From a virus, in the IMG/VR virus record IMGVR_UViG_3300030116_005302, positions 1-53,932 of that record: a stretch of 53,932 bases of DNA; one strand, 5' to 3'. The position numbers and the translations under genes were made by a program. The notes beneath the pieces were generated by a model that saw only the letters and a program-made list of their open reading frames with translations, was not told the origin of the DNA and did not search any database. How positions within the stretch are numbered: position 1 is the first letter of the stretch; every line of letters starts with the position of its first letter. Shown in pieces: positions 3,811 to 43,837 of this stretch.

Positions 3811-6800
3811 ATGGCAGTATCAGAATCCCCAAGAATGGGAGCACTTTTAGACCAAATAGCTAGAGCAGAAAGCAATAATCAACCAAATGTAATTTACGGG
3901 GGTGCTACTTTTAATGATTATTCAGATCATCCAAGACAATATGTTCCTATTGTATCAGGGCCTAATCAGGGTTTAAAAAGTTCAGGAGCAGGGGCATTTC
4001 AATTTATTGCTCCTACTTGGGATATTTATAAAGAAAAATTAAATTTACCTGATTTTTCTCCTGAAAGCCAAAGAATTGCTGCTGCTGAATTAGCCAGAGA
4101 CGATTATAAAAAAAGAACAGGTAGAGATCTTGATGTAGATTTAGAGTCCGATGATCCTAAAATTCAACAAGATATTTTTAGAAATTTAAATAAAACATGG
4201 ACTAGTATTCCTGGGGGTATAGAAGAACGGCCAGATTCTAATTGGGCTAGTGTTTGGGGGGCTCCCACAATTGGAGCAGGACCACAAATAGCCGCTGTAT
4301 CTCCAAGTGAAGAAAAGCCTTTTGATATTGCTGGTCTTGCCCTTAATTTTGTATTTCCTGAAGCACAAGCTGCTGAACCAGACACTACTCAATCTGTAAC
4401 TCAAGAACCCCCATCAGGTCCTATGACATCAAGAGATATTGATTTTGCAAGTAATGTAGCTGCTGCTACTAGTGTACTTGGCGATCCTATAATGACTCCT
4501 GAACAAGTAACACAAGACTTATATGAAGGTTCTTCTATAGGGTATGATCCTGTGTATACAGACGCTATTGATTCTAGGGGGGAGTTATTTGGTAGAGCAG
4601 TATCCTCTGGTAAAGCTGGGGTATTTTCAAGTTTCGATAGGCTTGGTGCTATTTATAATACTATATTAGGTGATGAAGAAGCTGCAGCTTTAAATCTTGA
4701 ACGAGCAAGAGTACGGGACGAAGAAGCTTCTAAGTTACTAGATGGTACTGCTACTTTTGATCAATTATTAGAAGAGCCTGATCTTGACACATTTCTAGAT
4801 GTATCGGTTAAAACTGTAGGATCAGCAGTTCCTTACGGTATTGAATCTTTAGCTGGTTGGTTTGTAGGGGCAACTTTAGCGACTATGTCTCCTGCAGTTG
4901 TAGCTGCTGGTGGACTTGCAACTGTAGCAGGAAAAGCATCTCTTAAAAAAATATTCGGTGATATTTTAACTAAAAAATTAATTAAAAAAGAAGCTCTTGA
5001 TACTGACAGTAAAGAGCTTATAGAAGGCGTACACACTCGTAGAAAATGGACAGATAGAGCTGAACTAGGAGGCCGTGTAGGAGGTTTTGGGGCTTCTTAT
5101 GCTATAGGTGCTCCAATGGCTCTTGAAGAATTTCAAGAGGCTGGCCAAGAATTAAATATTGATACCGCAATAAAATCAGCAATTTTAGGTGCGCCTATTG
5201 CTTTAATAGATACTTATACAGAAGATTATTTAAGAAAGACTTTATTTAAAGTAGCTAGGGCAAAAGCTGCTACAGCGCCTGGTAATTCACCTTTAAAGAA
5301 TTTTGCAAAAGCAGTAGGTGGTACTACGTTAAAAGGTGGGATAGGGGAAGGTGTTGCAGAAACTTCACAAGAAGCAGTTGTAGCAGCGCAGCGTTTATTA
5401 ATAGATCCCACTTATACTTTGCAGGATACCTATTTAAGATTAGGTGAATCTTTGTTTGGCGGCATAATGGCTGGTAAAGCTTTTGGGGCTGCTGGTGGCT
5501 CTCTTGCTGCTACACCTAAACTAGCCCGTGAAATGTTAAACAGGGTTAGGGAAAAATCTGTATTAGGTAAGATAAATACAGCAGAAACAGGGGTCGATGA
5601 TGAAACTGTATTATCTGGAAGGCCTACAGCAGAACCTAACGCTGATTTGGATCTTCAGTTAGAATTAACCGGCCTAGGAGCTAAAGATGCAACGTGGGTA
5701 TCTAATCGTGAAAACGTAAATAACATAGCACGTAAATACGGTATAGACCTTGACAGTTTAGGATACGACCCTGTAAAAGTTAAAAATACAAATCTTTCTG
5801 TAGCTAGGGTAAATAAAGCAGCTTCTGCGCAACCTGACGCTCAAGACGGCCTTATATTTTCTACAAACGAAAATATTATTAATGGTGTTTTAAAAGGCGG
5901 GGCTACACCTGAATCTTTAAAAGCTGCTCTTGGCTATAGCGCAGTTGCTCCTGCTAATGCAGATACTTCTGTACAAGTTGAAATAAAAGCTGAAGACGGC
6001 TCTTCTAGAGTTATTTTTGCTCAAGCTGTAGATGGTACAGATCCAGAAGCATTAGCTGCTGCACAAGAAGCTGCTGAAAGACAACGAGCTCGTTTACCTG
6101 AACAATATCAAAGAAGTGCTACAGTAGAAACTATTGCTTTAGCTGCTGCATTAACTGGCAGACAAATTGTAGAAACTAAATCTACTGGTGATGATACTTT
6201 AGGTCAAATAGCAGCTTATGAAGAAACAGGTGAAGGTGGAGTTGCATTACCTTTAGACCCTTTAGTACAAACTATAAACGATCTTTCAAAAGAACGAGAT
6301 GCAATATTAGATCAAGTTAGGGTTGATAATGCAGAAACTTACGACATTATTAAAAGAACAGAAAACCGAATTAAAGAGTTAGTAGCAGATAAGGTTCAAA
6401 TACTTAATCAAATACGGGCAGAACGTGATATAGCACAACCTATAGGAATTGAAGGGGTAGACCCGGAAATACGTGAATTTTTAGATAATGTTTTAAGAAA
6501 TAATGTTGCTGCTGGTATTCGTAATGAAGTAGATCTTTATAATAAATTATTTACTGGTGGGCTTAGAAGAGCAACCCAACAAGATGCATTACAGGTAACC
6601 CACCCTGAAGCAGTAGACCAAATACAAACAATTAATAACGATATAGAAAGTTTAGAAAATTCTATAACGGGTTTAGAAAATACTTTATCTTCTGAAATTC
6701 GAAATTCTTTAGATTCTGTTGATGTAAGATTACGAAATACTAAAAATGAATTACAAAGAAAATCACTCGAAACAGCCCGTGAAGAAATGGTCGGAGCTGA

Positions 6801-16864: not shown

Positions 16865-17923
16865 ATGCCTAGTAAAGCAAGAAAAGCAGCAGCCCAAGCG
16901 TCTTATCAACAAGGCCAACGCAAGAACATGATTTATAATGGTGATATGGAAATTTGTCAAAGGTCTACTAGCGTTTCAGGAATTGGAAATGGTGACGCAG
17001 GATACCATGTGCAAGACAGATGGAGAGTGGGAGAAGGTGGCGCACCAAACGCAGTAGTTACTATGTCAAAATCAACAACAGCACCAGATGGGTTTGCTTC
17101 TTCGTTAAAGTTAGATTGCACGACTGCATCTGGAACTGTAGCCGATGCTGATTTATTGGTGATATCACAACTGTTTGAAGGTCAAGATTTGCAGTCATGG
17201 AATAAAGGTGATGCTCAAGCAAGGGCAATTACAATTTCTTTTTGGGTAAATACTACAAAAACAGGAACCTATATTATTTCAATGTATGACAATGATAATA
17301 ATAGAGCTTGCGGCCAATCTTATACAGTTAGTTCTAGTAATACTTGGGAATATAAAACAGTTACTTTTCCACCAGACACTACGGGAGCTTATGATAATGA
17401 TAATGCAGTAAGTTTATATCTTTATTGGGGACTAGTTGCAGGAGCAGATTATGCAGGTGGGAGTTTAGCAACTGCATGGGAAAGTAACAACAATCCTGAT
17501 AGATTTACAGGTCAAGTAGATGCTTTTGATAGCACAAGTAATAATTTTCATTTGACTGGCGTACAGATGGAATTGGGAAATACGGCTACTGATTTTCAAT
17601 ATGAATCACACGCTGAAAATTTAGCACGATGTCAAAGGTATTATCAAATAGTTGGATTTTATGATACTTCAGGGATAACTTCTGGTAATTATTTATATTA
17701 TTCAGCAAAAAGTTTACCTACAGCAATGAGAGCTTCTCCATCAACTTTAGCGTCTTATGCGTTTAATACTACTTCTGGTAATTTTCAAACCCGTAGAGAT
17801 TCAACTTACACAAATGGCGTAGTACAAGTAGTGAGTTCGCCACGCACATATTCTTGTAGAGGAAATAATACTAACACCTATAACTGGATTTTAGGAGATG
17901 TTCATTTAGGAGCAGAACTGTGA
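16865..17923 (+). CDS. receptor-binding tail protein with carbohydrate-binding-like domain, 352 aa
   Basis: It starts with a short basic helix, then NMIYNGDMEICQRS and a jelly-roll-like beta domain (residues ~25-235) with WRVGEGG, ITISFWVNTTKTGTYI and FHLTGVQMELG. An LARCQRYYQ segment precedes a C-terminal beta region. This NGDMEI...GVQMELG...CQRYYQ architecture is frequent in marine phage and prophage fibres and resembles carbohydrate-binding modules, so it likely recognises host surface glycan. It follows the assembly chaperone gene after 11 bases. The ligand is unknown. Confidence 0.75.
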   Translation: MPSKARKAAAQASYQQGQRKNMIYNGDMEICQRSTSVSGIGNGDAGYHVQDRWRVGEGGAPNAVVTMSKSTTAPDGFASSLKLDCTTASGTVADADLLVISQLFEGQDLQSWNKGDAQARAITISFWVNTTKTGTYIISMYDNDNNRACGQSYTVSSSNTWEYKTVTFPPDTTGAYDNDNAVSLYLYWGLVAGADYAGGSLATAWESNNNPDRFTGQVDAFDSTSNNFHLTGVQMELGNTATDFQYESHAENLARCQRYYQIVGFYDTSGITSGNYLYYSAKSLPTAMRASPSTLASYAFNTTSGNFQTRRDSTYTNGVVQVVSSPRTYSCRGNNTNTYNWILGDVHLGAEL

Positions 17924-18108
17924 ATATTGTTTCAGCAAAATATGTTTATAATGAGTTAACAGAAACAAACTGTAGTATTGAAGTCGTAATCTCTAAGGGT
18001 AGTACCACAAACACTATTTACGTTCCATTTGATAAAGACAACACTGATTATGAAGAAATAATGAAACAAGTTGACGCAGGTACATTAACAATAGCGGATG
18101 CAGACTAA
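17920..18108 (+). CDS. small hypothetical protein, 62 aa (GTG start)
   Basis: Starts with GTG overlapping the preceding stop (GTGA). It has two beta-like stretches (SIEVVISKG, TIYVPFDKD) and an acidic C-terminus. Similar small proteins with a DNTDYxEIMxxVxAGTLTIAxAD ending accompany fibre genes in marine phages and may act in fibre assembly. It ends by overlapping the next ATG (TAATG). Function unknown. Confidence 0.65.
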   Translation: MNIVSAKYVYNELTETNCSIEVVISKGSTTNTIYVPFDKDNTDYEEIMKQVDAGTLTIADAD

Positions 18109-18314
18109 TGGAAAACACCGAAAGAATACATGAACTAACCGCTCGGCTTGAAGCTCATGTTGCACGTTGCGAAGAACGGGATAAAACTATATTTAATGAT
18201 TTAGCTGAGTTAAAAGAAGAATTAAAAGATTTTCGTATGCTAATGACAAAGATTGGTGTTCTGTTAACATCTGGTGTAGCGGGGACATTGGTAACAGTTT
18301 TATTGAGGGGATAA
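18108..18314 (+). CDS. XhlA-like small coiled-coil/membrane protein, 68 aa
   Basis: A helical, charged N-terminus (ERIHELTARLEAHVARCEERDKTIFNDLAELKEELKDF) is followed by one C-terminal membrane helix (IGVLLTSGVAGTLVTVLL). This matches the XhlA/hemolysin-like phage proteins, which are membrane-anchored coiled coils linked to lysis. It lies between tail genes, both ends overlapping neighbours by one base. It could alternatively be a small virion protein. The lysis role is inferred. Confidence 0.6.
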   Translation: MENTERIHELTARLEAHVARCEERDKTIFNDLAELKEELKDFRMLMTKIGVLLTSGVAGTLVTVLLRG

Positions 18315-24661: not shown

Positions 24662-25408
24662 TTAAACGCCCCATTGACAATCAGGCTCATCACCTTTTTT
24701 ATAGCTGCACCATTTACAATTGTTTTTACTTGGATTAGGTGCAAAGTCATCGCATGTTGTCATTTTAATAGCACGTTCGTGTATCCCTGGGAGAAACATT
24801 AAAGCCTCCTCCCGGGTATACGGTACAGTTGTTGTTTCACCATGGTCTAAATACCAAAGTTCAGAACTTACGTACTCTAATTCAGGGCTACGCATAAATG
24901 CTGCAAGTGCATACAGCAAGCATTGTTGGGAGTGAGGTATTTCGTTACCTATTTTTTTGCCTGTTTTATAATCAATAACACGGGCTGAAGTCTGGCCTTC
25001 TTGTATGTAAGCATCAAGTTTTACTCGGGCCCAGCAGTCTGTGCTCATCCATTTTGTTTGCCCCCAATCGACAGTAAATGCCCATTCGCCTTCAAGTTCT
25101 ACTTGCCCGTCTATATAAAGTTTTTTAAGTTGATGGAACTCATCTTCAAATTTAACTAGGCTACCTGGGAACTCCGTCAATTTACCATTAACAAAGTCTT
25201 CTGCTTCTTGGTGTATTTTTGAACCACGTTCAGCTGCTGGTCCGGAAGGTTCTCGTACTTTACGTACTTTAGATATGTATATGCGGTAAGGGCATTCTTC
25301 AAATGTTTTAAGAGTTGAATACGACCACGCGGGAACTAAACCAAATGTATCTGGTTTTTTAAGTGGCTTATCCTTGTCCGGTCTCGCTTCCTGCGTTAAC
25401 TTGATCAA
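24662..25408 (-). CDS. PD-(D/E)XK exonuclease, RecB/Cas4-like with Fe-S cysteines, 248 aa
   Basis: Motifs of the PDDEXK_1 family: WSYSTLKTFEECPYR near residues 28-42, H66 in RGSKIH, D132, D146-Y147-K148 (VIDYKTGK) and a Q-x3-Y helix (QQCLLYAL). Cysteines C39, C231, C234 and C244 fit the [4Fe-4S] cluster of AddB/Cas4-like nucleases. The start is uncertain: the best candidate is a TTG at 25408, right after an in-frame stop and without a good ribosome site. It overlaps the primase-helicase gene by 41 bases, so translation is probably coupled. Role: 5'-end processing or recombination. Confidence 0.85.
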   Translation of the reverse strand: MIKLTQEARPDKDKPLKKPDTFGLVPAWSYSTLKTFEECPYRIYISKVRKVREPSGPAAERGSKIHQEAEDFVNGKLTEFPGSLVKFEDEFHQLKKLYIDGQVELEGEWAFTVDWGQTKWMSTDCWARVKLDAYIQEGQTSARVIDYKTGKKIGNEIPHSQQCLLYALAAFMRSPELEYVSSELWYLDHGETTTVPYTREEALMFLPGIHERAIKMTTCDDFAPNPSKNNCKWCSYKKGDEPDCQWGV

Positions 25409-27902
25409 TTAAGACATTGTCTCTTGTATCGAAATATTGAGCCATTATATCCTTTAATTGAACACTGTCAACTTCCCACCTTATCAATACCCCACGTATG
25501 GGATTAGCTGATTGATCTCGAGCCGGGCGTTTCCTTTCAATTTGTAATCCATTTCTATCTGTCATTTTTCTAAATTGTTTAATTGCTATTGGCGGGGTTT
25601 GTTCTGTCTGTGTATGGTACACGGTACGTAGATGCTCAAGCGGAACTATTGAATACTGGTCCTGGGCTGCGTCTGCGATCCATGTTTTTACGAACCGCTG
25701 TGATGACATAATAGTATTTGCATTAAATGCATTATCTAAAGATATGTCTAAAACATCCATAAAAAACATTAAGTTACCAACTTTAATAGCTTCACAAAAC
25801 TCTTCGAATACTGACATCGTTACATTGCGCATTGTTATCTTAGCTTCATTGTTCATGCAGATCCGTGCCATACGTTTGCTAACTTTGTATTGAGATAGCG
25901 CCCCGGCAAAAGTACTTAATTCTTCGTGTATTGTGTCTATGTTTTCTACTATTTCTGGATGGGCATCTTCTAATTTAACCTCCTGCCTGGGGCCTACGTT
26001 GTATCGTCTATCACCTGTTTCTATTTTTACTGCATCTGACCTATTGGTAAGAAAGATAAAGTTTGTATAGCTGGGTAATTCAATTTGATTACTACGCATC
26101 CCACGGATAGTTAAAGTAGGTTCGGTAATCTGATTCTTTAGTTTATCTGCCATACGGAGACTACCTCCGTTAGCATCTGTCATTCTAAATTCATCAATGA
26201 TTAAGAACAGCGCTGATCTCATATATAAGTTAAATTGTTCTTCGATATTTTCTAGATTTTTCATTGGTACGTGTTCATTACCAAACAGGGGTTTTAATAC
26301 TCTGTTGATAAATACACCTTTACCTGTCCCGGGTATACCTGTAAGTATCCAAGCTGTCATGCTTTTGGTTTTATTCTGGTAAATATAAGCAAGCCAGTTT
26401 AGAAAGTGTTCCGTTTCAGGGTCTTTACCGCCCAGAATATGTTTAATTAGACCGTAGATCATGGGACACATACCCTTAAGATTTACTCCTGTACCATATT
26501 CAAGTGGTTCTCCTATCATGTTTTCATTAAGCATGTACTGTGATCTACGGTACATGTTCACATAGAAAGGAGTTTTATCCAGATTGACAGCTGTTTTAGA
26601 ACTCATAGGTTCAAATACAACCTGTGCGTCTGGTATAAAATCTGGTTGAGTTCTACCGTGGCTGCGCATAAACCCTTCAATACTTGTTTTATTGGTAGGG
26701 GTTAACGGGTAGTCATCACTGAATTGATTTAGGTTAGGATCAAATACACCGTTATAATAAGTATCAGTATAAAAGTCCCTAAGTACCACGGGTTGCGTTG
26801 CTTTATTTCCTGCAATATCTGTTTCGGTAAACCTATCAAATATTGATAAATAGAAGTCTTTGTCAGCTTTAGCGATTTCAAATATTGGTTCGTCTTTGAA
26901 ATTAAACATGTAAGTCGGGTCTTCAAGGTGGAAATAATATGCATTGCTGTCCCCTCCGTTTATATTACAACGTATAAATGGAGCAGAGCTCTCATCTACA
27001 ATTGTTATAGACATCTTGTCCGGGTTTACCAGAACTTCTGTAGCTTGGTTATTTATTGTCGCAGTGTGTACTTTAGCAGATCGTTTCTGTAATCCTGCTT
27101 TCTTGCGCAGCTCATCTTTAATAGATATTTCTGCTGCAAAATTCTTTTCAGGATTTACTTCGTACATAAGAGTAGCCAAATCTACTGTGGCTTTTTCTCT
27201 TTTTGTAAATATGATTCGTTCTTTTGCAGAGTTAAACGGGTCTATAGAAGTATCTACAAAGTCAGGAGCAGCAATAAAAATAATTTTAGTATTGTCTGCA
27301 ACTGAAGGATCGAGTGGATACTTGAGTGATTGTCCGTTACTGCTTAGTTCTAGTTGTGTTTTAAATAAATCGTTTGTGTAGTTAACGTGTTTAAGCCATA
27401 ACTTGATTGATGGTACCGGTAGTGGTATCTCAAGTAGCATGAATATGTGCAACGATACACGGTCACTTTTTAAACCAAGGCTTGATGAGGCCTGTGCTAT
27501 GTAGCTTACGTTATGAAATACTTTAGGTAAGCTGGTAATAATTGTTTCCGCAATACGGCCTACGTCTAAGTTGGTTAGAGTTGACTTAGATACGAAGCCA
27601 GGAATGCGAATGTTGTCAACATCAAATACAATGTACTCACAGAATGCATTTTTATCTCCTTGTCCTGCTCTACTTTGGTTATGTAATTGTTTCTTTAGGG
27701 GTCCTTTTAATAAACAATCACCTTTAGAGGAGTGAGTACGGATTAGAGATTCAAATTGTTTTAAACCTTTATTGGTTTTTTCTATTTGGTAATGGTGTGA
27801 ATTGACTTTTTTTACGTGGGGGTAAGGTTGAGTTTCCTTACTTGAGATTCTTTTTGTTAAACGTAAAGCACTAGCTGCTTCTAGAAAAACTATTTCCATC
27901 AT
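25368..27902 (-). CDS. primase-helicase (AEP-like primase plus SF3/D5-type helicase, DUF5906-like), 844 aa
   Basis: The N-terminal region contains YIVFDVDNI (D94, D96), the D-x-D metal site of archaeo-eukaryotic-type primases. The C-terminal half has a Walker A GIPGTGKG (near residue 522) and a Walker B LFLIIDEF (near 567), then IFLTNRSDAV and GDRRYNV, typical of phage DUF5906/SF3 helicases. It likely unwinds the fork and makes primers for the adjacent DNA polymerase. The ATG overlaps the stop of the CsrA-like gene (ATGA), with a GGAGAGG site upstream. Length fits fused phage primase-helicases. Confidence 0.85.
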   Translation of the reverse strand: MMEIVFLEAASALRLTKRISSKETQPYPHVKKVNSHHYQIEKTNKGLKQFESLIRTHSSKGDCLLKGPLKKQLHNQSRAGQGDKNAFCEYIVFDVDNIRIPGFVSKSTLTNLDVGRIAETIITSLPKVFHNVSYIAQASSSLGLKSDRVSLHIFMLLEIPLPVPSIKLWLKHVNYTNDLFKTQLELSSNGQSLKYPLDPSVADNTKIIFIAAPDFVDTSIDPFNSAKERIIFTKREKATVDLATLMYEVNPEKNFAAEISIKDELRKKAGLQKRSAKVHTATINNQATEVLVNPDKMSITIVDESSAPFIRCNINGGDSNAYYFHLEDPTYMFNFKDEPIFEIAKADKDFYLSIFDRFTETDIAGNKATQPVVLRDFYTDTYYNGVFDPNLNQFSDDYPLTPTNKTSIEGFMRSHGRTQPDFIPDAQVVFEPMSSKTAVNLDKTPFYVNMYRRSQYMLNENMIGEPLEYGTGVNLKGMCPMIYGLIKHILGGKDPETEHFLNWLAYIYQNKTKSMTAWILTGIPGTGKGVFINRVLKPLFGNEHVPMKNLENIEEQFNLYMRSALFLIIDEFRMTDANGGSLRMADKLKNQITEPTLTIRGMRSNQIELPSYTNFIFLTNRSDAVKIETGDRRYNVGPRQEVKLEDAHPEIVENIDTIHEELSTFAGALSQYKVSKRMARICMNNEAKITMRNVTMSVFEEFCEAIKVGNLMFFMDVLDISLDNAFNANTIMSSQRFVKTWIADAAQDQYSIVPLEHLRTVYHTQTEQTPPIAIKQFRKMTDRNGLQIERKRPARDQSANPIRGVLIRWEVDSVQLKDIMAQYFDTRDNVLIDQVNAGSETGQG

Positions 27903-28105
27903 TCCTCTCCATCGTACTTCCTTTGAAATACTTCTTTTCTGTCTATTGAAACTGATTTGTCTTCAGATTCTAGACTTAGTCTGACTTGTTTCCCATTTAT
28001 TTTAATGACTGTTATTGTAAGGAAGATATTTCCTTCTCTGTGAACTACAATAGCGCTGTCTTTATTATTAGTATTTTCTTTGCGGGTAAGTACGAGTTTG
28101 CTCAT
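27899..28105 (-). CDS. csrA: CsrA-like RNA-binding translational regulator, 68 aa
   Basis: Conserved CsrA pattern: LVLTRK at the N-terminus, an ITVIKINGKQVRLSLE core (compare VTVLGVKGNQVRIGV in E. coli CsrA), and VSIDRKEVFQRK (compare VSVHREEIYQRI). The Arg of the DRKEVFQR segment corresponds to the key RNA-binding Arg44 of E. coli CsrA. It has an insertion of ~7 residues between the first two strands (ENTNNKDSAIVVHREG). Known family members bind GGA motifs in mRNA leaders as dimers. Here it sits between the polymerase and primase genes, overlapping both by four bases, so it is made with the replisome. Likely targets are host or phage mRNAs. Confidence 0.85.
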   Translation of the reverse strand: MSKLVLTRKENTNNKDSAIVVHREGNIFLTITVIKINGKQVRLSLESEDKSVSIDRKEVFQRKYDGEE

Positions 28106-29961
28106 TTTGTATATGCTTTGTCATACCCACCTTCAGCTGATAATGGTAGTTCTTTACACCATACCGGTGGTTGTGTCATTGTAAATATTATATTGTCCAT
28201 AATATTACATGAATCTTTCTCTGTAGCAACAGCTATTATCTCATCGTGTACTGTTAAAACTACAGATCCACCGTTAGTATTTTGTAAATAATTATGCACT
28301 TTATTTATGGAATCAGTAATAATTATACGTGCTAAAGCTTGTACAATATTTTCTGCTATTTTTCCGCCATAAAGTTTAACTTGTTGTTTCTGGTTGAAGT
28401 ATACAAAATCAGACCCTTCAAAATATCCGTTACCTCGTTTGATTAAACCGGGGTATTTTAGGTACATACCATTTGGCAGCATTAATGCTCTATCAGCAAC
28501 TGTCAACGGTCCATATGTTAGTCCTTCAGAGTTTTTTTGAAGGGAACAAGTGATTAAGTATTCGCATTTTTTCCAGAAGTTAGCTATATCCGGATAGTTT
28601 CCTCGGTATGTATTTACTACATCTAATGCATCTTCATCTGATATATCTACTTCTGGGCCAGCCAGTCCATTTCTAAGCGTGAAAGCGAACTTTTTGTAAC
28701 CCATACCATACCCAAGGCCAAGTATTGCAGTCTTGCCTACAAACCTCTCTACTGGGTTGTCGTCCTTGTTTATAGGTTTCTTGTATATTTTAGAAGCAAA
28801 GTTACTGTATATATCTTCTCCGTTAGCAAATTCTTGTAGTAAGTCTGTTTGATTTGAAATCCACGCCAGGACACGGGCTTCAATATTTGATAAGTCAGCA
28901 ACGTATACTAGATGCCCTTCGGGTGCTTGTAATGCTTTACGTAACTCAGAACCCCTGGGTAGGTTTTGCATATTAAGTTTGTCAGTGCCACCGAATCTGC
29001 CTGTATGTGCCGCATAATATCTTAATGGGACACTTATGGACCCATCCTTGTTGATAACATTTAAAAACCTCTGGGCCCTGGTTTCTTCAATTCTTGATTT
29101 AACTGCTATCCGTGCTTCCCATAAATTTTTATGTTCTGGATACTTTCTAACCATTTGTTTGTAACCGGCATCATTTTTCCCAAGTGCGGGTATTTTATTG
29201 CCGGTAGTAGGGCTGGTCTTCATAGGTGGATTAATACCTATTGATTCAAGATAGGCGCTAAACTGTTGATTACTGGACAAAACTTTTTTATCTATTCCGC
29301 AAGCTTCTATTTTTTCTTTACTTTCCTGTGTTATGCGGTCACGATATTTGGTTAAGAGTTCACGGTCTACGGTCAGCTTAGGCTCAACAAACATCTTGGT
29401 TGTAAGGTCAATAATATGCAACTCTGTATCCGGGATCTTAGACTTCAATTTATTATAGATACTGTGAGTAAGGTCTACGTCCTGTTTGCAGTAACCTGCA
29501 ATCTGGTCTTCAATATCCGGAGGTAAGTCTACAATACCTTTTGCTGATACTAGCTCATCTCCTTTACGCATCTGTTCATCGTCAGGCCATAACCTTTTAC
29601 ATACTTCAGACAGCTTTGCTGATTGCATTGGGTCAATGCCGCGAGCCATAGCTGCAGTATCATAGTAAAAAGCAGGGTGTACGTTGTAGTATTGAGTTAG
29701 AATATAGCCGTCAAATAAAGCATTATGACAAACTACAGCTGTGTTATCCCAGTCAACATCTTGCAAAAAAGCTTCTATATCATTTTCATTTAGCCAATCT
29801 GCTTCCTGTTCTGAAAAGAAACGAACCCCCAGCCCCCATACTTTAAACTGATCTCCGTTAACATATTCTGCAGTCGTAAGTTTTTTCAGAGAATAATGAG
29901 GATCGAAGTAGGTTTCAAAATCAAGAACTAATACACTTAGCTTATCAAGATCTACTGTCAT
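28102..29961 (-). CDS. polA: DNA polymerase, family A, with 3'-5' exonuclease domain, 619 aa
   Basis: Exonuclease motifs are present: VLDFETYF (Exo I), CHNALFDGYIL (Exo II) and YCKQDVDLT (Exo III). Polymerase motif A is VADLSNIEARVLAW, motif B RFVGKTAILGLGYGMG and motif C LTVHDEI. The residue equivalent to E. coli Phe762 is Leu (codon at 28720-28722). At 619 residues it is short, lacks a 5'-3' exonuclease, and matches phage replicative Pol A. The downstream neighbours are the CsrA-like gene and the primase-helicase. Confidence 0.95.
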   Translation of the reverse strand: MTVDLDKLSVLVLDFETYFDPHYSLKKLTTAEYVNGDQFKVWGLGVRFFSEQEADWLNENDIEAFLQDVDWDNTAVVCHNALFDGYILTQYYNVHPAFYYDTAAMARGIDPMQSAKLSEVCKRLWPDDEQMRKGDELVSAKGIVDLPPDIEDQIAGYCKQDVDLTHSIYNKLKSKIPDTELHIIDLTTKMFVEPKLTVDRELLTKYRDRITQESKEKIEACGIDKKVLSSNQQFSAYLESIGINPPMKTSPTTGNKIPALGKNDAGYKQMVRKYPEHKNLWEARIAVKSRIEETRAQRFLNVINKDGSISVPLRYYAAHTGRFGGTDKLNMQNLPRGSELRKALQAPEGHLVYVADLSNIEARVLAWISNQTDLLQEFANGEDIYSNFASKIYKKPINKDDNPVERFVGKTAILGLGYGMGYKKFAFTLRNGLAGPEVDISDEDALDVVNTYRGNYPDIANFWKKCEYLITCSLQKNSEGLTYGPLTVADRALMLPNGMYLKYPGLIKRGNGYFEGSDFVYFNQKQQVKLYGGKIAENIVQALARIIITDSINKVHNYLQNTNGGSVVLTVHDEIIAVATEKDSCNIMDNIIFTMTQPPVWCKELPLSAEGGYDKAYTK

Positions 29962-34385: not shown

Positions 34386-34562
34386 TTACTTACTTTGAAC
34401 AGAAGATGTTTCACTTAGTTTTCCCCATGAAAGATAAATAATAAATGCAATTGCAATCATAGAGATAATGCCTTGAACACCAATAGTTATTGCTTCCAAA
34501 GCCATAGTCAAACTAATAATTGCAACAAGAGTTAAAGCAATTTTTGCTGGTATATTTTTCAT
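34386..34562 (-). CDS. small membrane protein, 58 aa
   Basis: The ATG at 34562 overlaps the TGA of the VWA-metallopeptidase gene (ATGA). Two hydrophobic segments lie near residues 8-22 and 29-44, followed by a polar tail (WGKLSETSSVQSK). Stop-start overlap is the main support. No function is recognised; it may be co-translated with the upstream protein and could be its membrane partner. Confidence 0.6.
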   Translation of the reverse strand: MKNIPAKIALTLVAIISLTMALEAITIGVQGIISMIAIAFIIYLSWGKLSETSSVQSK

Positions 34563-35722
34563 TGTTCATCCTTGTTTTCTGGTAATAAATATACTGTTTC
34601 ACCCCATGGTGCTTCTTCATTCCGTACAGTAGATATCCATAAGACTGGTATTTCTGGTTCTTCACCGAACTCATCAGACCCCAAGTCAGTTAAATATATA
34701 ATTACTTCTACATCGGGAAACTCTTCAACAACTTTTGTAATTGCAGGATGAAAGCTGGTACCGCCTCTTCCTTTGATTACACATTCTGTTTCTTCTATAT
34801 CTTCATAGTCTTCAAATATTTTTACATCTTGTACTTCTGTATCACACTGCATAAGTATTAGTCTTTGTGGCATAGTCTCACGAGCTACGGCACATGTTTC
34901 TCCCCAGAACTGGGTAAACTCTTCAACACTTACAGACCCGGACGAGTCTTTAATTACTGCTACGGATCCAATTGCATCAGAGTTGAATGAAGGCAAGTAC
35001 TCGTCTTCACTTAGGTAAGCACGGTTTGGTTTCTTCCAAGTGTAGTCATCGCTGGCTACAGACTTGAAGAAACTCCAGAGTAAATCTTTCCAGTCAATAA
35101 GAGGATTAACTACATCCTTTACCAGTTCTTCAAGATGCCCGGGCAATTTACCTTGTGCTTTTGCAATGGACAACGCTTGGTTGATTGCTACCTGCCACTC
35201 AGCCTCTGTGTTTGCAGATACATTGTCCATTACAAAGCCCCATGTTGGACCTTCCTGTTCAGGAGGCAACTGATTGTAAATAGCTTCTGCTGACATATTT
35301 TTGAACTCTTCTGCTTTAAGTGCATTTTGAGGAAGTATATGTCCATGATCTAAAAGATGTAGATTGATTGCATAGTCACATGCAGCATTCCATCTTTGAT
35401 ATTCACGTTCCTGTCTCCTTGCTTGGTGACTGAATACAATGTGAAGTAGTTCATGTGCAAGAAGACCACGGGTTTCTTGCGGTGTTTGTTTACAAATAAA
35501 CCTGGGATTGTATATGAGGTCTACACCATTAGTAGCTGCAGTCTCTTCATCCCAAGTTGGTTTGTAGTTTAGTTTTAAAGCAAGAGTACCGTAGAAAGGT
35601 TCTTTAAGTAGTAAAGAAGACTTTGCTTTTATTATTAGTTTGTTTGCTTCTTGTTCATATAAGTCTCTTTCTTTGGGATCACTCACCTGATTTTGTTTTC
35701 GTTGAGGCCCGATAACAGTCAT
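34559..35722 (-). CDS. VWA-like metallopeptidase (DUF2201-type), 387 aa
   Basis: The N-terminal zincin signature HELLH is at residues 90-94, with a conserved WNAACDYAIN block at 111-120 following. The C-terminal VWA domain has a complete MIDAS: D-S-S-G-S at 259-263, T322 in GRGGTS and D346 in YLTDLG. Proteins of this type pair with MoxR-family ATPases, and one lies two genes upstream. The likely job is ATPase-driven remodelling or proteolysis of a target during early infection; substrate unknown. An AGGA site precedes the ATG. Confidence 0.8.
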   Translation of the reverse strand: MTVIGPQRKQNQVSDPKERDLYEQEANKLIIKAKSSLLLKEPFYGTLALKLNYKPTWDEETAATNGVDLIYNPRFICKQTPQETRGLLAHELLHIVFSHQARRQEREYQRWNAACDYAINLHLLDHGHILPQNALKAEEFKNMSAEAIYNQLPPEQEGPTWGFVMDNVSANTEAEWQVAINQALSIAKAQGKLPGHLEELVKDVVNPLIDWKDLLWSFFKSVASDDYTWKKPNRAYLSEDEYLPSFNSDAIGSVAVIKDSSGSVSVEEFTQFWGETCAVARETMPQRLILMQCDTEVQDVKIFEDYEDIEETECVIKGRGGTSFHPAITKVVEEFPDVEVIIYLTDLGSDEFGEEPEIPVLWISTVRNEEAPWGETVYLLPENKDEQ

Positions 35723-36495: not shown

Positions 36496-37506
36496 TTATA
36501 TTACTACTGAAGCATTGTCTTGAATCCATTCCTGACATGCTTCATGGTTTTGAAGTGCTCGGTCTTTTGCAAGACTGTCTTTCATAAAGTAAACCTGATA
36601 CTCAGGATTTAACTTTCTCATATACTTAACAATGTTCTTGAATGTTGTACTATCAACTCGTGCAGCTAGTGCACCAGAGATTGCAAACATTACTGAAGTA
36701 TCGTCAGGTACATCGACCAGGTGTGGTGTTTTAATTATCTTGTCAATGTCAGGCAGACTATTGAACATTGTTTTATGTGCAATGAACTCACCTGCTGGTC
36801 CATCACCAATGATAGATGCAACACCATAGAACTGTTCATCGTTTGAACTACCCATATGAGGAAGCTTTTTGTCAACCATTTCCCAACCACGAGGAGTTGG
36901 AAATGCATTTTGTTTTGCGTCCATAGCATGAAGTAGTTGCGGTCGATAACGTATAAAGCTAGTTATCATTGGGCTGATATCATTTTGCATAGCCCATACA
37001 CACCAGTCATCTACGTTAGGTTCAACTGTGTAATGCGCAAACCGAGACTTAACTGGTGTTGGCATCTCGTGCACAGCTGCTCTATCTTTTGATCTGTTAC
37101 CAGCTGCAATGATTGTTGTATACGGTGGAAGTGTATAAGTACCAATCTTCTTGTCGAGTATCAATTGCAACAAGGCATTCTGTGTTGCTTTAGGTGCAAC
37201 GGGCAACTCGTCAATAAACAGGGTCACTGATCCTTGATAACTTGCATCAGGATAATCTTCCGGAATACCGTATCGAGTACGATATGTACCGTCTGCCTGC
37301 TCTACAACTTTAAGGCCACCACGTACATCGACTGGGTCAAACAGATTTGCACGTAACTCAAAGAGCTTTGAATCACGGGCATGTGCAGTTTGATATACGA
37401 TCTGTGATTTACCTAGACCGGGCCCACCCCAGATCATAGTAGGTATATCAGCTTTTGCATTGGCTGTTATCTCTTTGTATAACAGCGAGGGTTTTATTTC
37501 TCTCAT
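36496..37506 (-). CDS. MoxR-family AAA+ ATPase, 336 aa
   Basis: Walker A GGPGLGKS (residues 27-34), Walker B LFIDE (96-100), sensor 1 N137 in AAGNRS and an arginine finger candidate R155 in PVKSRF. This is the canonical MoxR/AAA+ arrangement. With the VWA metallopeptidase downstream it likely forms a chaperone-like complex that acts on a protein target. The ATG overlaps the upstream stop (ATATGA) with an AAAGGAG site. Confidence 0.9.
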   Translation of the reverse strand: MREIKPSLLYKEITANAKADIPTMIWGGPGLGKSQIVYQTAHARDSKLFELRANLFDPVDVRGGLKVVEQADGTYRTRYGIPEDYPDASYQGSVTLFIDELPVAPKATQNALLQLILDKKIGTYTLPPYTTIIAAGNRSKDRAAVHEMPTPVKSRFAHYTVEPNVDDWCVWAMQNDISPMITSFIRYRPQLLHAMDAKQNAFPTPRGWEMVDKKLPHMGSSNDEQFYGVASIIGDGPAGEFIAHKTMFNSLPDIDKIIKTPHLVDVPDDTSVMFAISGALAARVDSTTFKNIVKYMRKLNPEYQVYFMKDSLAKDRALQNHEACQEWIQDNASVVI

Positions 37507-40678: not shown

Positions 40679-41035
40679 TTATGCCACCTCCTTTATCATT
40701 GGTAGATGTGCCCATGCACTTGCTACTTCTGCTATTAATACTTGTACATGTTCAATGTCATTTACATCGTTTAATTTTTTTGCACGGAAGCATTTCCTAA
40801 TACAATGCAGATACAAATCATTTAATTTCTCGGACAATTCATAACCTTTTTCTTTACCTTCCGTTAATGACGCCTGCAATGCGAACAATAACTCTACAGC
40901 TCGGTTGATTTCTCGGTCTTTATCCTCTAGTGCACCACTGCGCATTGCATCTTCTGCTTTACCGAGGGCTTCCAATAATGCAGTAAGCAATTGCATAATT
41001 AGTTCAATTCCGTCTTTCATTTCTTCTTTTTTCAT
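40679..41035 (-). CDS. fliS: FliS-like flagellar export chaperone homologue, 118 aa
   Basis: The start is ATG 41035 (AAGGAGG eight bases upstream); the longer upstream frame has no ribosome site. The helical protein matches the FliS pattern: an amphipathic helix with LLTALLEALGKAEDAM, EINRAVELLFALQASL, ELSEKLNDLYLHCIRKCF, then AKKLNDVNDIEHVQVLI and VASAWA, compared with SKAINIIENGLRVSL, ELTQNLIALYSYMVRRL, NDVSAVEEVEALM and IADAW of E. coli FliS. FliS binds the C-terminus of flagellin and stops it polymerising in the cytoplasm. Its N-terminus is shorter here. A preceding repeat leader may control it. Phage use could be to block flagellin export or motility. Confidence 0.8.
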   Translation of the reverse strand: MKKEEMKDGIELIMQLLTALLEALGKAEDAMRSGALEDKDREINRAVELLFALQASLTEGKEKGYELSEKLNDLYLHCIRKCFRAKKLNDVNDIEHVQVLIAEVASAWAHLPMIKEVA

Positions 41036-41069
41036 GTCATATCCTCCTTGAAATGGATAAATAATTAAA

Positions 41070-41118
41070 AAATACAATGGAAAATGCTCACTCGAAGACC
41101 CCGTGAGGGGGCTGAGTG
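41070..41118 (-). repeat. early-gene hairpin leader, copy A
   Basis: Read on the + strand: AATACAAT..AAAATGC, then a stem CACTC...CCCC-GTGA-GGGG...GAGTG. On the - strand this is a GC-rich hairpin followed by GCATTTTCCATTGTATTTTTT and the FliS-like ribosome site. Copies B-D are alike. Confidence 0.75.
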
Positions 41119-41135
41119 GTTAATTTTTAACCGAT

Positions 41136-41425
41136 TTGTGCCAGTAACAAGGCCTTGTGCCAGCACTGTGCCAGCAACTGTGCCATGTAAAACGAGCCTT
41201 AAGTATTTGTATTGCATAATGAATCATGGTTCTGTGCCACTTGTGCCACTTACTTTTACTAAGTTAAACATAGAACATATTTATTATTTAACGCCCGCAT
41301 ATTGTAAACCAACTTGAAAATGCTGGCACAGCTGGCACAACTGGCACAGATTTACGATTTATGGTTTACGATCAATGGTTTACGTCCGTGCCAGCAAGCA
41401 AATCCTGTCTGGCACAGGTGGCACG
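41136..41425. repeat. GTGCCA/TGGCAC iteron-like cluster (candidate origin)
   Basis: The core GTGCCA or its reverse complement TGGCAC occurs 12 times in under 300 bases. Forward copies begin at 41138, 41157, 41168, 41180, 41234, 41243 and 41388; reverse copies begin at 41324, 41333, 41342, 41410 and 41419. Three reverse copies form exact 9-bp tandem units at 41323-41349. An AT-rich stretch (41251-41290) separates the two orientations. This layout resembles iterons at replication origins. Function inferred. Confidence 0.7.
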
Positions 41426-41571
41426 AAGCGTTATTATGTGGTGCCTCGCGCTTGGACGTGGTTCTTGGAGCAAGAATGCTTGTCACTTGCAAGCAAGCAA
41501 CGCCCGCAAGCATAAACCTTGGGCAAGCAAGCATGGACCCCGATACAAGCCCGGCATCCATAACGCCCGCA
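41290..41571. repeat. accessory repeats AACGCCCGCA and GCAAGCAA
   Basis: AACGCCCGCA occurs at 41290-41299, 41499-41508 and 41562-41571. GCAAGCAA occurs at 41394-41401, 41489-41496, 41493-41500 and 41523-41530. ATGGTTTACG occurs once at 41361-41370 and again as part of 41375-41384. These interleave with the GTGCCA cluster and are unlike the flanking genes. Confidence 0.65.
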
Positions 41572-41573
41572 TA

Positions 41574-41606
41574 ATAAAAAAACCCCCCAGACTTTCGTCC
41601 GGGAGG
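41574..41606 (-). terminator. strong rho-independent terminator
   Basis: On the - strand a ~10-bp G+C-rich stem (CCTCCCGGAC / GTCTGGGGGG, two wobbles) capped by a GAAA tetraloop is followed by seven T. It ends leftward transcription of the 70-residue gene before the iteron-like region. Confidence 0.9.
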
Positions 41607-41623
41607 CTTCTCTAGGAGGAAAC

Positions 41624-42048: not shown

Positions 42049-42097
42049 ATACAATAAAAAATGCCGACTATCAGATTCCGCGAGGAACCTGATAGTC
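42049..42097 (-). repeat. early-gene hairpin leader, copy B
   Basis: The longest stem of the set: GACTATCAGATTCC-GCGA-GGAACCTGATAGTC on the + strand (14 bp with one wobble; GNRA loop). On the - strand, GCATTTTTTATTGTATTTCTT follows, then the ribosome site of the 58-residue gene. Confidence 0.8.
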
Positions 42098-42107
42098 AGC
42101 TGTTGGG

Positions 42108-42416
42108 TTATGACTCTAAGTCGAGCTCTTTGTCTGCGTCTGTAGCTTTCCTATGAATCCAAATACCACCTTTGAAGTCAAATTCTCCAGTGCTGTATGC
42201 AGATTCTATAAGGAGTTCAGCTTCTTGTCCGTTCTTAAGCATACCCTTAGACTCAACGACACATTTCACAATGCCTTTATCATCGTAAGACCATGCACAC
42301 CAGGCTCTAACTCTACCATTAGGTAGCTTGATAGCCTTGATTGTTACGGCATTGTGAAGCCTCCAATAAGGCCGTTCTTCCCATTGGTTAGTATTGTTTT
42401 GATTTTCTGTAGTCAT
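42108..42416 (-). CDS. hypothetical early protein, 102 aa
   Basis: The start is ATG 42416 (AGGAGG seven bases upstream); the longer frame runs back through a repeat leader. The product MTTENQNNTNQWEERPYWRLHN has a beta-rich middle (VTIKAIKLPNGRVRAWCAWSYD, IVKCVVESKG) and an acidic end. It is followed by the copy B hairpin, which may act as a terminator. No family is recognised. Confidence 0.65.
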   Translation of the reverse strand: MTTENQNNTNQWEERPYWRLHNAVTIKAIKLPNGRVRAWCAWSYDDKGIVKCVVESKGMLKNGQEAELLIESAYSTGEFDFKGGIWIHRKATDADKELDLES

Positions 42417-42446: not shown

Positions 42447-42491
42447 AATACAATAGAAAATGCAAACTACGGCCATCGTGAGATGGCCATA
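42447..42491 (-). repeat. early-gene hairpin leader, copy C
   Basis: The stem TACGGCCATC-GTGA-GATGGCCATA (10 bp, one wobble) on the + strand. On the - strand it is followed by TTTGCATTTTCTATTGTATTT and then AGGAGG before the 102-residue gene. Confidence 0.8.
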
Positions 42492-42512
42492 GAATGCTAG
42501 AAGATGCTTGGG

Positions 42513-43327: not shown

Positions 43328-43837
43328 ATGGACAAAGATATCGAACCATCGGAACAGTACGAAGTCCCCGAGCATGTGGAATTCCAGTCCAAAATGCCGT
43401 ACATGGGGCTACATACTAATGAATTAACGGTCCAGGAAGAGCGTTTCATCAATTTAATAGCAAGTGGCATGACAATTACTGCTGCTGGACGTGCTGTCGG
43501 GTATAAAACACGGCATTATGCCAGCAGGGTTGCTAATAAACCCAAGATTAAACAAGCACTTGACTATCTCAAACAGGAATTACGTGAAGAAACCAAGTTT
43601 ACACGGGCTCATGCGCATAAAATGTACATGGATACGTACATTGCGTCTGCAAATGCTACAGAAATGAAAGGCACCGTGGATTCTTTGTGTAAGTTGCACG
43701 GATTACACCAGCCTGACAACGCAACTCAGGTCAATATTAATGTAAATGGGGTAAAACAGCTGGAAAGAATGAGTGATGAAGAGTTACTTAAGATAGCTGG
43801 GCACTCCGAAAACTATCTGGAGCCTGATAATGGCTGA
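43328..43837 (+). CDS. terS: terminase small subunit, 169 aa
   Basis: A helix-turn-helix-type N-terminal region (LTVQEERFINLIASGMTITA, AGRAVGYKTRHYASRVANKPKIKQAL) matches phage small terminases, with a C-terminal helical oligomerisation region. It precedes the large subunit by two genes and lies just after the promoter region. It overlaps the next gene by eight bases. Role: recognition of the packaging site and activation of the motor. Confidence 0.8.
   Translation: MDKDIEPSEQYEVPEHVEFQSKMPYMGLHTNELTVQEERFINLIASGMTITAAGRAVGYKTRHYASRVANKPKIKQALDYLKQELREETKFTRAHAHKMYMDTYIASANATEMKGTVDSLCKLHGLHQPDNATQVNINVNGVKQLERMSDEELLKIAGHSENYLEPDNG

Follow-up and report, generated by a model that had tools for sequence, protein, structure and literature searches.

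We analysed a repeat-rich stretch of a tailed-phage genome (IMG/VR record IMGVR_UViG_3300030116_005302; the window is the complete virus record of 53,932 bp) and conclude that 41138–41424 is, with a probability of roughly 80%, the replication origin of the phage, built from two sets of short repeats (iterons) that face each other across an AT-rich core. The conclusion rests on the conserved iterons, their spacing, the AT-rich core, IHF-like sites, the position of the array and the concerted change of its iterons between relatives. From these we infer the origin function and with it the binding, core melting, bidirectional initiation, IHF binding and initiator identity described here. One sequence-specific phage initiator would bind both facing iteron sets, and host IHF (or HU) would bend the DNA between outer and inner iterons, folding both sets against the 75-bp core. 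The core would then melt, initiator/helicase hexamers would load outward in both directions, and the phage PolA would extend. A sequence-only reading had proposed an origin at 41136–41571, and this is supported and most likely right: relatives, whether near or distant, strongly conserve the repeats, their spacing and the AT-rich core. The extent needs trimming, as the conserved part is 41138–41424, while 41430–41571 is GC-rich and common only to close lineages.

Anatomy of the repeat array

GTGCCA/TGGCAC occurs at 12 sites in the 287 bp of 41138–41424 and at 14 in the remaining 53.6 kb, forming the densest 6-mer cluster of the genome after poly-A. The maximum among 200 simulated first-order Markov genomes was 3 sites per 300 bp, and the earlier count of twelve copies in under 300 bases is thereby confirmed. 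Written with > for GTGCCA, < for TGGCAC and gaps in bp, the order is > 13 > 5 > 6 > 48 > 3 > 75 < 3 < 3 < 40 > 16 < 3 <. The rightward-pointing sites left of the core are four outer and two inner ones; beyond the core, three inner and two outer ones point leftward, with one additional forward site on the right side that forms an inverted pair (Table 1). Three exact 9-bp tandem units had been claimed; the triplet reads CTGGCACAG/CTGGCACAA/CTGGCACAG, in which one unit differs by one base, and exact repetition holds for the two copies of TGTGCCACT. The AT-rich core, also anticipated, could be placed between the inner iterons, and the first 42 bp of it (41249–41290) have 17% GC. Direct repeats, an AT-rich candidate unwinding element and an IHF-like site are thus present together as sequence features of an iteron-type origin. 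A second repeat family, of about 7/14 bp, flanks or interrupts the arrays: it is seen as GGTTTACG at 41351–41384 of the window and as GTGGTCC or CACGATT types in the flanks of three relatives (L158, L159 and L154).

The array lies in non-coding DNA (41078–41623) flanked by two co-oriented leftward genes. As the sequence-only reading held, no credible gene was found in the stretch, which has only short overlapping open reading frames and gave no match in tRNA and Rfam scans. Leftward genes encode PolA, a D5-type primase-helicase, an SNF2 helicase and nucleases; from 43328 on, rightward genes encode TerS and TerL (the small and large terminase subunits) and the portal and head proteins. The assignment to the early module needs correction: the stretch lies between leftward genes, at the border between the leftward early/replication block and the rightward packaging/head block.

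Table 1. Coordinates of the origin candidate and of associated features in the window.
Feature	Coordinates	Strand	Basis or remark
Outer left iterons, four GTGCCA (41138, 41157, 41168, 41180), gaps 13-5-6 bp	41138–41185	+	Exact sequence; gaps equal in many relatives
Inner left iterons, two tandem GTGCCA, 9-bp period	41234–41248	+	Sequence
AT-rich core, 75 bp, candidate DNA-unwinding element	41249–41323	.	GC 28%
Inner right iterons, three tandem TGGCAC, 9-bp period	41324–41347	-	Sequence
IHF-like site GATCAATGGTTTA, 12/13 consensus positions, right arm	41370–41382	+	Sequence; relatives with perfect consensus at equivalent offset
Inverted pair GTGCCA-16 bp-TGGCAC	41388–41415	.	16–17 bp gap retained in many relatives
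Outer right iterons, TGGCAC at 41410 and 41419	41410–41424	-	Sequence
Accessory repeats AACGCCCGCA (41290, 41499, 41562) and GCAAGCA/GCAAGCAA (from 41394)	41290–41571	+	Lineage-restricted
Strong intrinsic terminator, 16-bp stem, GAAA loop, T tract	41573–41612	-	-25.1 kcal/mol, z -5.5; closes right side
Left-side hairpin, upstream of leftward gene 40679–41077	41083–41122	-	-15.1 kcal/mol, z -3.0
Candidate initiator, D5/P4-type primase-helicase, 844 aa, C-terminal winged-helix-like domain	25368–27902	-	Profile and fold matches; array binding putative
PolA	28102–29961		Phage-encoded
Small terminase subunit (landmark)	43328–43837	+	Counterpart identical in two relatives of different iteron dialect

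Conservation of the array in related phages

Arrays were found at the equivalent place in viral contigs recovered as TerL relatives, mostly metagenome contigs and some of them short. About 40 further phages share the plan of outer and inner repeats pointing rightward, an AT-rich core and the mirror image, 1.3–2.8 kb upstream of TerS. A pattern search (two forward sites, a 60–90 bp gap, two reverse sites) returned 30 viral stretches, and the lineage members among these keep a close gap pattern of 13/5/6 - 46–48 - 3 - 75 - 3 - 38–51 - 16 despite locus GC reaching 57%. Between the window and its nearest array-bearing relative (L006), 0 of 72 bases differ in the sites and 79 of 252 outside them, which suggests that the repeats are under selection.

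The core is 74–77 bp long in most relatives. Its sequence is not conserved between them, and its GC is below that of the locus in 38 of the 39 arrays with a measurable core (mean 0.30 vs 0.48). Of 78 arms, 33 contain the IHF consensus WATCARNNNNTTR, where 0.63 would be expected, an enrichment whose factor is approximate because the expectation comes from a single-base shuffle and some of the arrays are related; in several arrays the consensus lies exactly 38 bp past the second inner reverse site.

Among cultured phages, Aeromonas phage phiA008 and the Pseudomonas KPP25 group are nearest to the window when TerL, primase and head protein are compared. KPP25 carries the iteron TGTTACGA/TGTCACGA around an AT-rich core (26219–26894 of its record), and phiA008 has an AT-rich gap at 2.8–3.2 kb with no clear array. 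A DNA search of the region against cultured phages gave one spurious 45-bp match only. We treat the 21 matches to the core pattern in bacterial genomes as unrelated because no TerL or capsid relative accompanies any of them; in L119 there is a distant primase match and nothing more. Clusters of GTGCCA/TGGCAC at different spacing occur in Prevotella-type bacterial contigs (L113, L118, L122, L131 and L132), in L131 and L132 twice in tandem; the proteins tested are not related in these contigs. One 55,380-bp relative (G017) has array sequence at both ends (179–194 and 55160–55375); it may derive from a circular or redundant genome opened at the array, and an exact overlap of its ends was not found.

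Concerted change of the iterons

The spelling of the repeat varies by phage (TGTGTGCCA, TGTGTACCA, TGTGTTCCA, TGTGTGTCA, TGTGTGCAG, TGTGTGTCG, GGTGTGACA, TGTAGCA and more), and phages of other dialects have about 10–14 repeats each at the equivalent place. Most arrays keep a single spelling throughout and a few mix two (for example, L057 and L082); copies within one phage change jointly. When L078 and L158 (ACC) are compared with L159 (TCC), 12 of 12 dialect positions differ, against 0 of 84 other iteron positions and about 13–15% of the surrounding bases. L078 could in principle be a chimeric contig; the ACC/TCC contrast recurs between L158/L163, L162 and L166 on one side and L159, L173, L175 and L177 on the other. 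That a dozen copies on both strands changed in step points to a single trans-acting reader that would bind all iterons. The dialect series, which includes these arrays differing by exactly one base per iteron with 84 other iteron bases unchanged, would then be a natural experiment in which an initiator and a dozen sites shift specificity together.

Alternative functions of the array

The stretch might instead be a transcriptional control hub, the repeats serving as operators of a phage regulator and the core as early promoter of the leftward genes, although we consider this improbable. A strong terminator closes the right side, so leftward transcription of 40679–41077 and beyond probably starts inside the stretch, and the core has a weak sigma70-like match (minus strand, 41329–41301). 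Promoter-like matches are, however, no commoner than in shuffled sequence, a symmetric two-sided array of 10–14 sites would be unusual as an operator between co-oriented genes, and the array is conserved whereas the adjacent genes are not. An operator role may coexist with origin function.

A slightly poorer prospect is a packaging initiation site of the pac or cosB kind, at which TerS would bind the repeats, IHF would bend the DNA and TerL would cut nearby. Lambda cosB likewise has repeats and IHF, and the array always lies 1.3–2.8 kb upstream of TerS. Headful packaging has been predicted for KPP25-like phages (PMC13119210). Yet L061 (a TCC phage) and L078 (ACC) have TerS identical over 157 aa and TerL about 99% identical while all 12 iterons differ, and the repeat mixes of L050 and L057 also differ although these two have TerS in common. 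Identical TerS with dialects differing at 12 of 12 positions speaks against a TerS-read packaging site and rules out TerS, in simple form, as the iteron reader. A partial Mantel test of TerS given TerL gave r 0.09 (p 0.08). Further, a conserved cleavage sequence was not seen in the core, and a pac site has no need of a fixed-length AT-rich core.

Very improbable is a centromere-like segregation or attP-like recombination site: such sites, too, can contain direct-repeat arrays and IHF sites, and 4 of 13 related genomes encode a tyrosine integrase, but the window and most relatives are without one, a ParB domain was found in 0 of the 13, and no crossover site is apparent since the core sequence is not conserved. 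The integrase genes (G011, 5681–6232; G017, 17585–18136; also G028 and G062) indicate that part of the lineage may be temperate.

Candidate initiator

If the array is a replication origin, its initiator could well be the phage's own D5/P4-type primase-helicase, an identification to which we give a little better than even odds. This protein has a D5-like helicase core (DUF5906, E 1.9e-19), matches NrS-1 primase (E 2.4e-37; fold E 4e-23) and, below the cut-off, TIGR01613 ('phage/plasmid primase, P4 family'); its closest solved structures are NrS-1 primase, then poxvirus D5/E5 and the PriRep1 helicase of a Staphylococcus aureus pathogenicity island (SaPI). Judged by its motifs, the N-terminal region looks archaeo-eukaryotic. 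The C-terminal domain has a predicted beta-alpha-alpha-beta-beta topology (mean predicted local distance difference test score 84.5), with weak fold matches (best E 0.05; NrS-1 E 0.18, probability 0.97). SaPI Rep helicases recognize iterons through their C-terminal domain (PMC7581432), and P4 alpha binds origin repeats via a winged-helix domain (PMC4234260). We favour the primase-helicase because of these repeat-recognizing relatives, the structural likeness and its lineage-wide presence; together with an exonuclease, an SNF2 helicase and PolA, it is among the early proteins found in all or nearly all genomes examined. In one relative (G039:C1:10399-12882) its frame contains one in-frame TAG, which could reflect a sequencing error, stop-codon recoding or a broken gene. 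The array-flanking genes were rejected as initiators, none being common to all array-bearing phages. Endonuclease VII-like genes lie near the array in many relatives, not in the window.

Several observations count against an origin served by this protein. The array is 13 kb away from the primase-helicase gene, a separation similar in relatives, whereas the origins of phage-inducible chromosomal islands (PICIs) adjoin rep. The primases of the ACC and TCC phages have the same putative recognition helix; the ACC sequence comes from a contig of the same metagenome that overlaps the end of the ACC phage (86 shared 21-mers) and probably carries its primase, which shares 92% identity with the TCC-phage primase, most differences falling at residues 1–300. 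No primase domain is singled out by dialect, and the signals are weak and uncorrected: in a sliding test of 22 primases and 27 windows the best uncorrected p values were 0.008 (aa 677–736) and 0.016 (aa 229–288), and close pairs are contradictory, with a C-terminal excess in G055/G046 and G015/G028 and none in G022/G023. The cumulative GC skew of the window does change, as the sequence-only reading had expected of an origin, reaching its lowest point at 42317, roughly 0.9 kb to the right of the array. This fits an origin, yet is weak evidence because it coincides with the divergence of transcription and is confounded by gene direction.

A broader picture, which we advance tentatively and hold to be rather doubtful as a whole, is that this marine tailed-phage lineage has a PICI-like two-sided origin whose 10–14 iterons shift their central bases in concert, producing many 'origin dialects' read neither by TerS nor simply by the recognition helix of the primase-helicase C-terminal domain. 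Satellites or origin-directed nucleases exploiting an old dialect may drive the change, in which case competitors may be the source of selection, by comparison with Odn and PLE (PICI-like element) satellites.

Neighbouring features

The three-copy and four-copy repeats noted earlier were recovered: all three genomic copies of AACGCCCGCA and four copies of GCAAGCAA are within the stretch, with one more GCAAGCAA elsewhere. We treat AACGCCCGCA and GCAAGCA as accessory because they lie mostly right of the array, in the GC-rich part, and are otherwise confined to close lineages (L006, L008, L078, L158 and L159). Similar T-tailed hairpins precede several small leftward genes (42063–42100, 42467–42492 and 41083–41122, minus strand) and may function as terminators or processing sites.

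Directly left of the array, 40679–41077 (minus strand) encodes a FliS-like flagellin export chaperone (Pfam FliS E 2.4e-17, above the cut-off; TIGR00208 just under its cut-off), a gene not found in 12 related genomes. Farther left and near each other on the minus strand are genes for a DUF2201 metallopeptidase/VWA-like protein (34559–35722, which PHROGs labels HNH endonuclease against DUF2201 in Pfam) and a MoxR-type AAA ATPase (36496–37506).

Comparison with known replication origins

In iteron plasmids and ori-lambda the iterons lie on one side of the unwinding element, whereas here they face each other across it. The iterons themselves, the AT-rich unwinding element and the assistance of IHF/HU are features in common (PMC10797057). 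Phage P4, with its ori/crr, resembles the present system in having a multifunctional primase-helicase, but alpha has a TOPRIM primase, and P4 uses ori plus crr where a single two-sided origin is proposed here. Origins of Vibrio PLE satellites, targets of the phage nuclease Odn, also diversify their iterons while retaining function (PMC8263062), but have three copies of semi-palindromic iterons of about 30 bp and a RepA_N initiator. KPP25 (Kochitakasuvirus) is related in TerL, head protein and primase-helicase and has an array around an AT-rich core, differing in its iteron and longer core; no description of this array as an origin was found in the literature searched. For most environmental tailed phages no origin has been mapped, and the signature described here predicts one across a large marine lineage and in cultured relatives such as KPP25.

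The closest likeness is to PICI and SaPI origins such as that of E. coli EcCICFT073, in which two iteron sets are described as invariably flanking an AT-rich region, an arrangement 'shared by ... no other known bacterial replicon' (PMC6092414). As in the present arrays, iteron sequence varies between elements, and the relatives of the candidate initiator are D5/SF3-type Rep or Pri-Rep helicases. The window is not an integrated satellite, since it encodes a terminase, portal and head proteins itself, and an integrase was not found in the record. Unlike PICI origins, which lie directly 3' of rep, the array is at 41.1 kb and the primase-helicase gene at 25.4–27.9 kb; its arms have IHF-like sites, its iterons have a 9-bp unit, and its plan is 4+2 : 2-3+outer. 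With this layout in tailed phages of 50–60 kb rather than satellites, away from the candidate initiator gene and with IHF-like sites, the array would work in the manner of a PICI origin although the phage itself is not a PICI, extending to full-size phages a two-sided layout that had been described as unique to phage-inducible islands.
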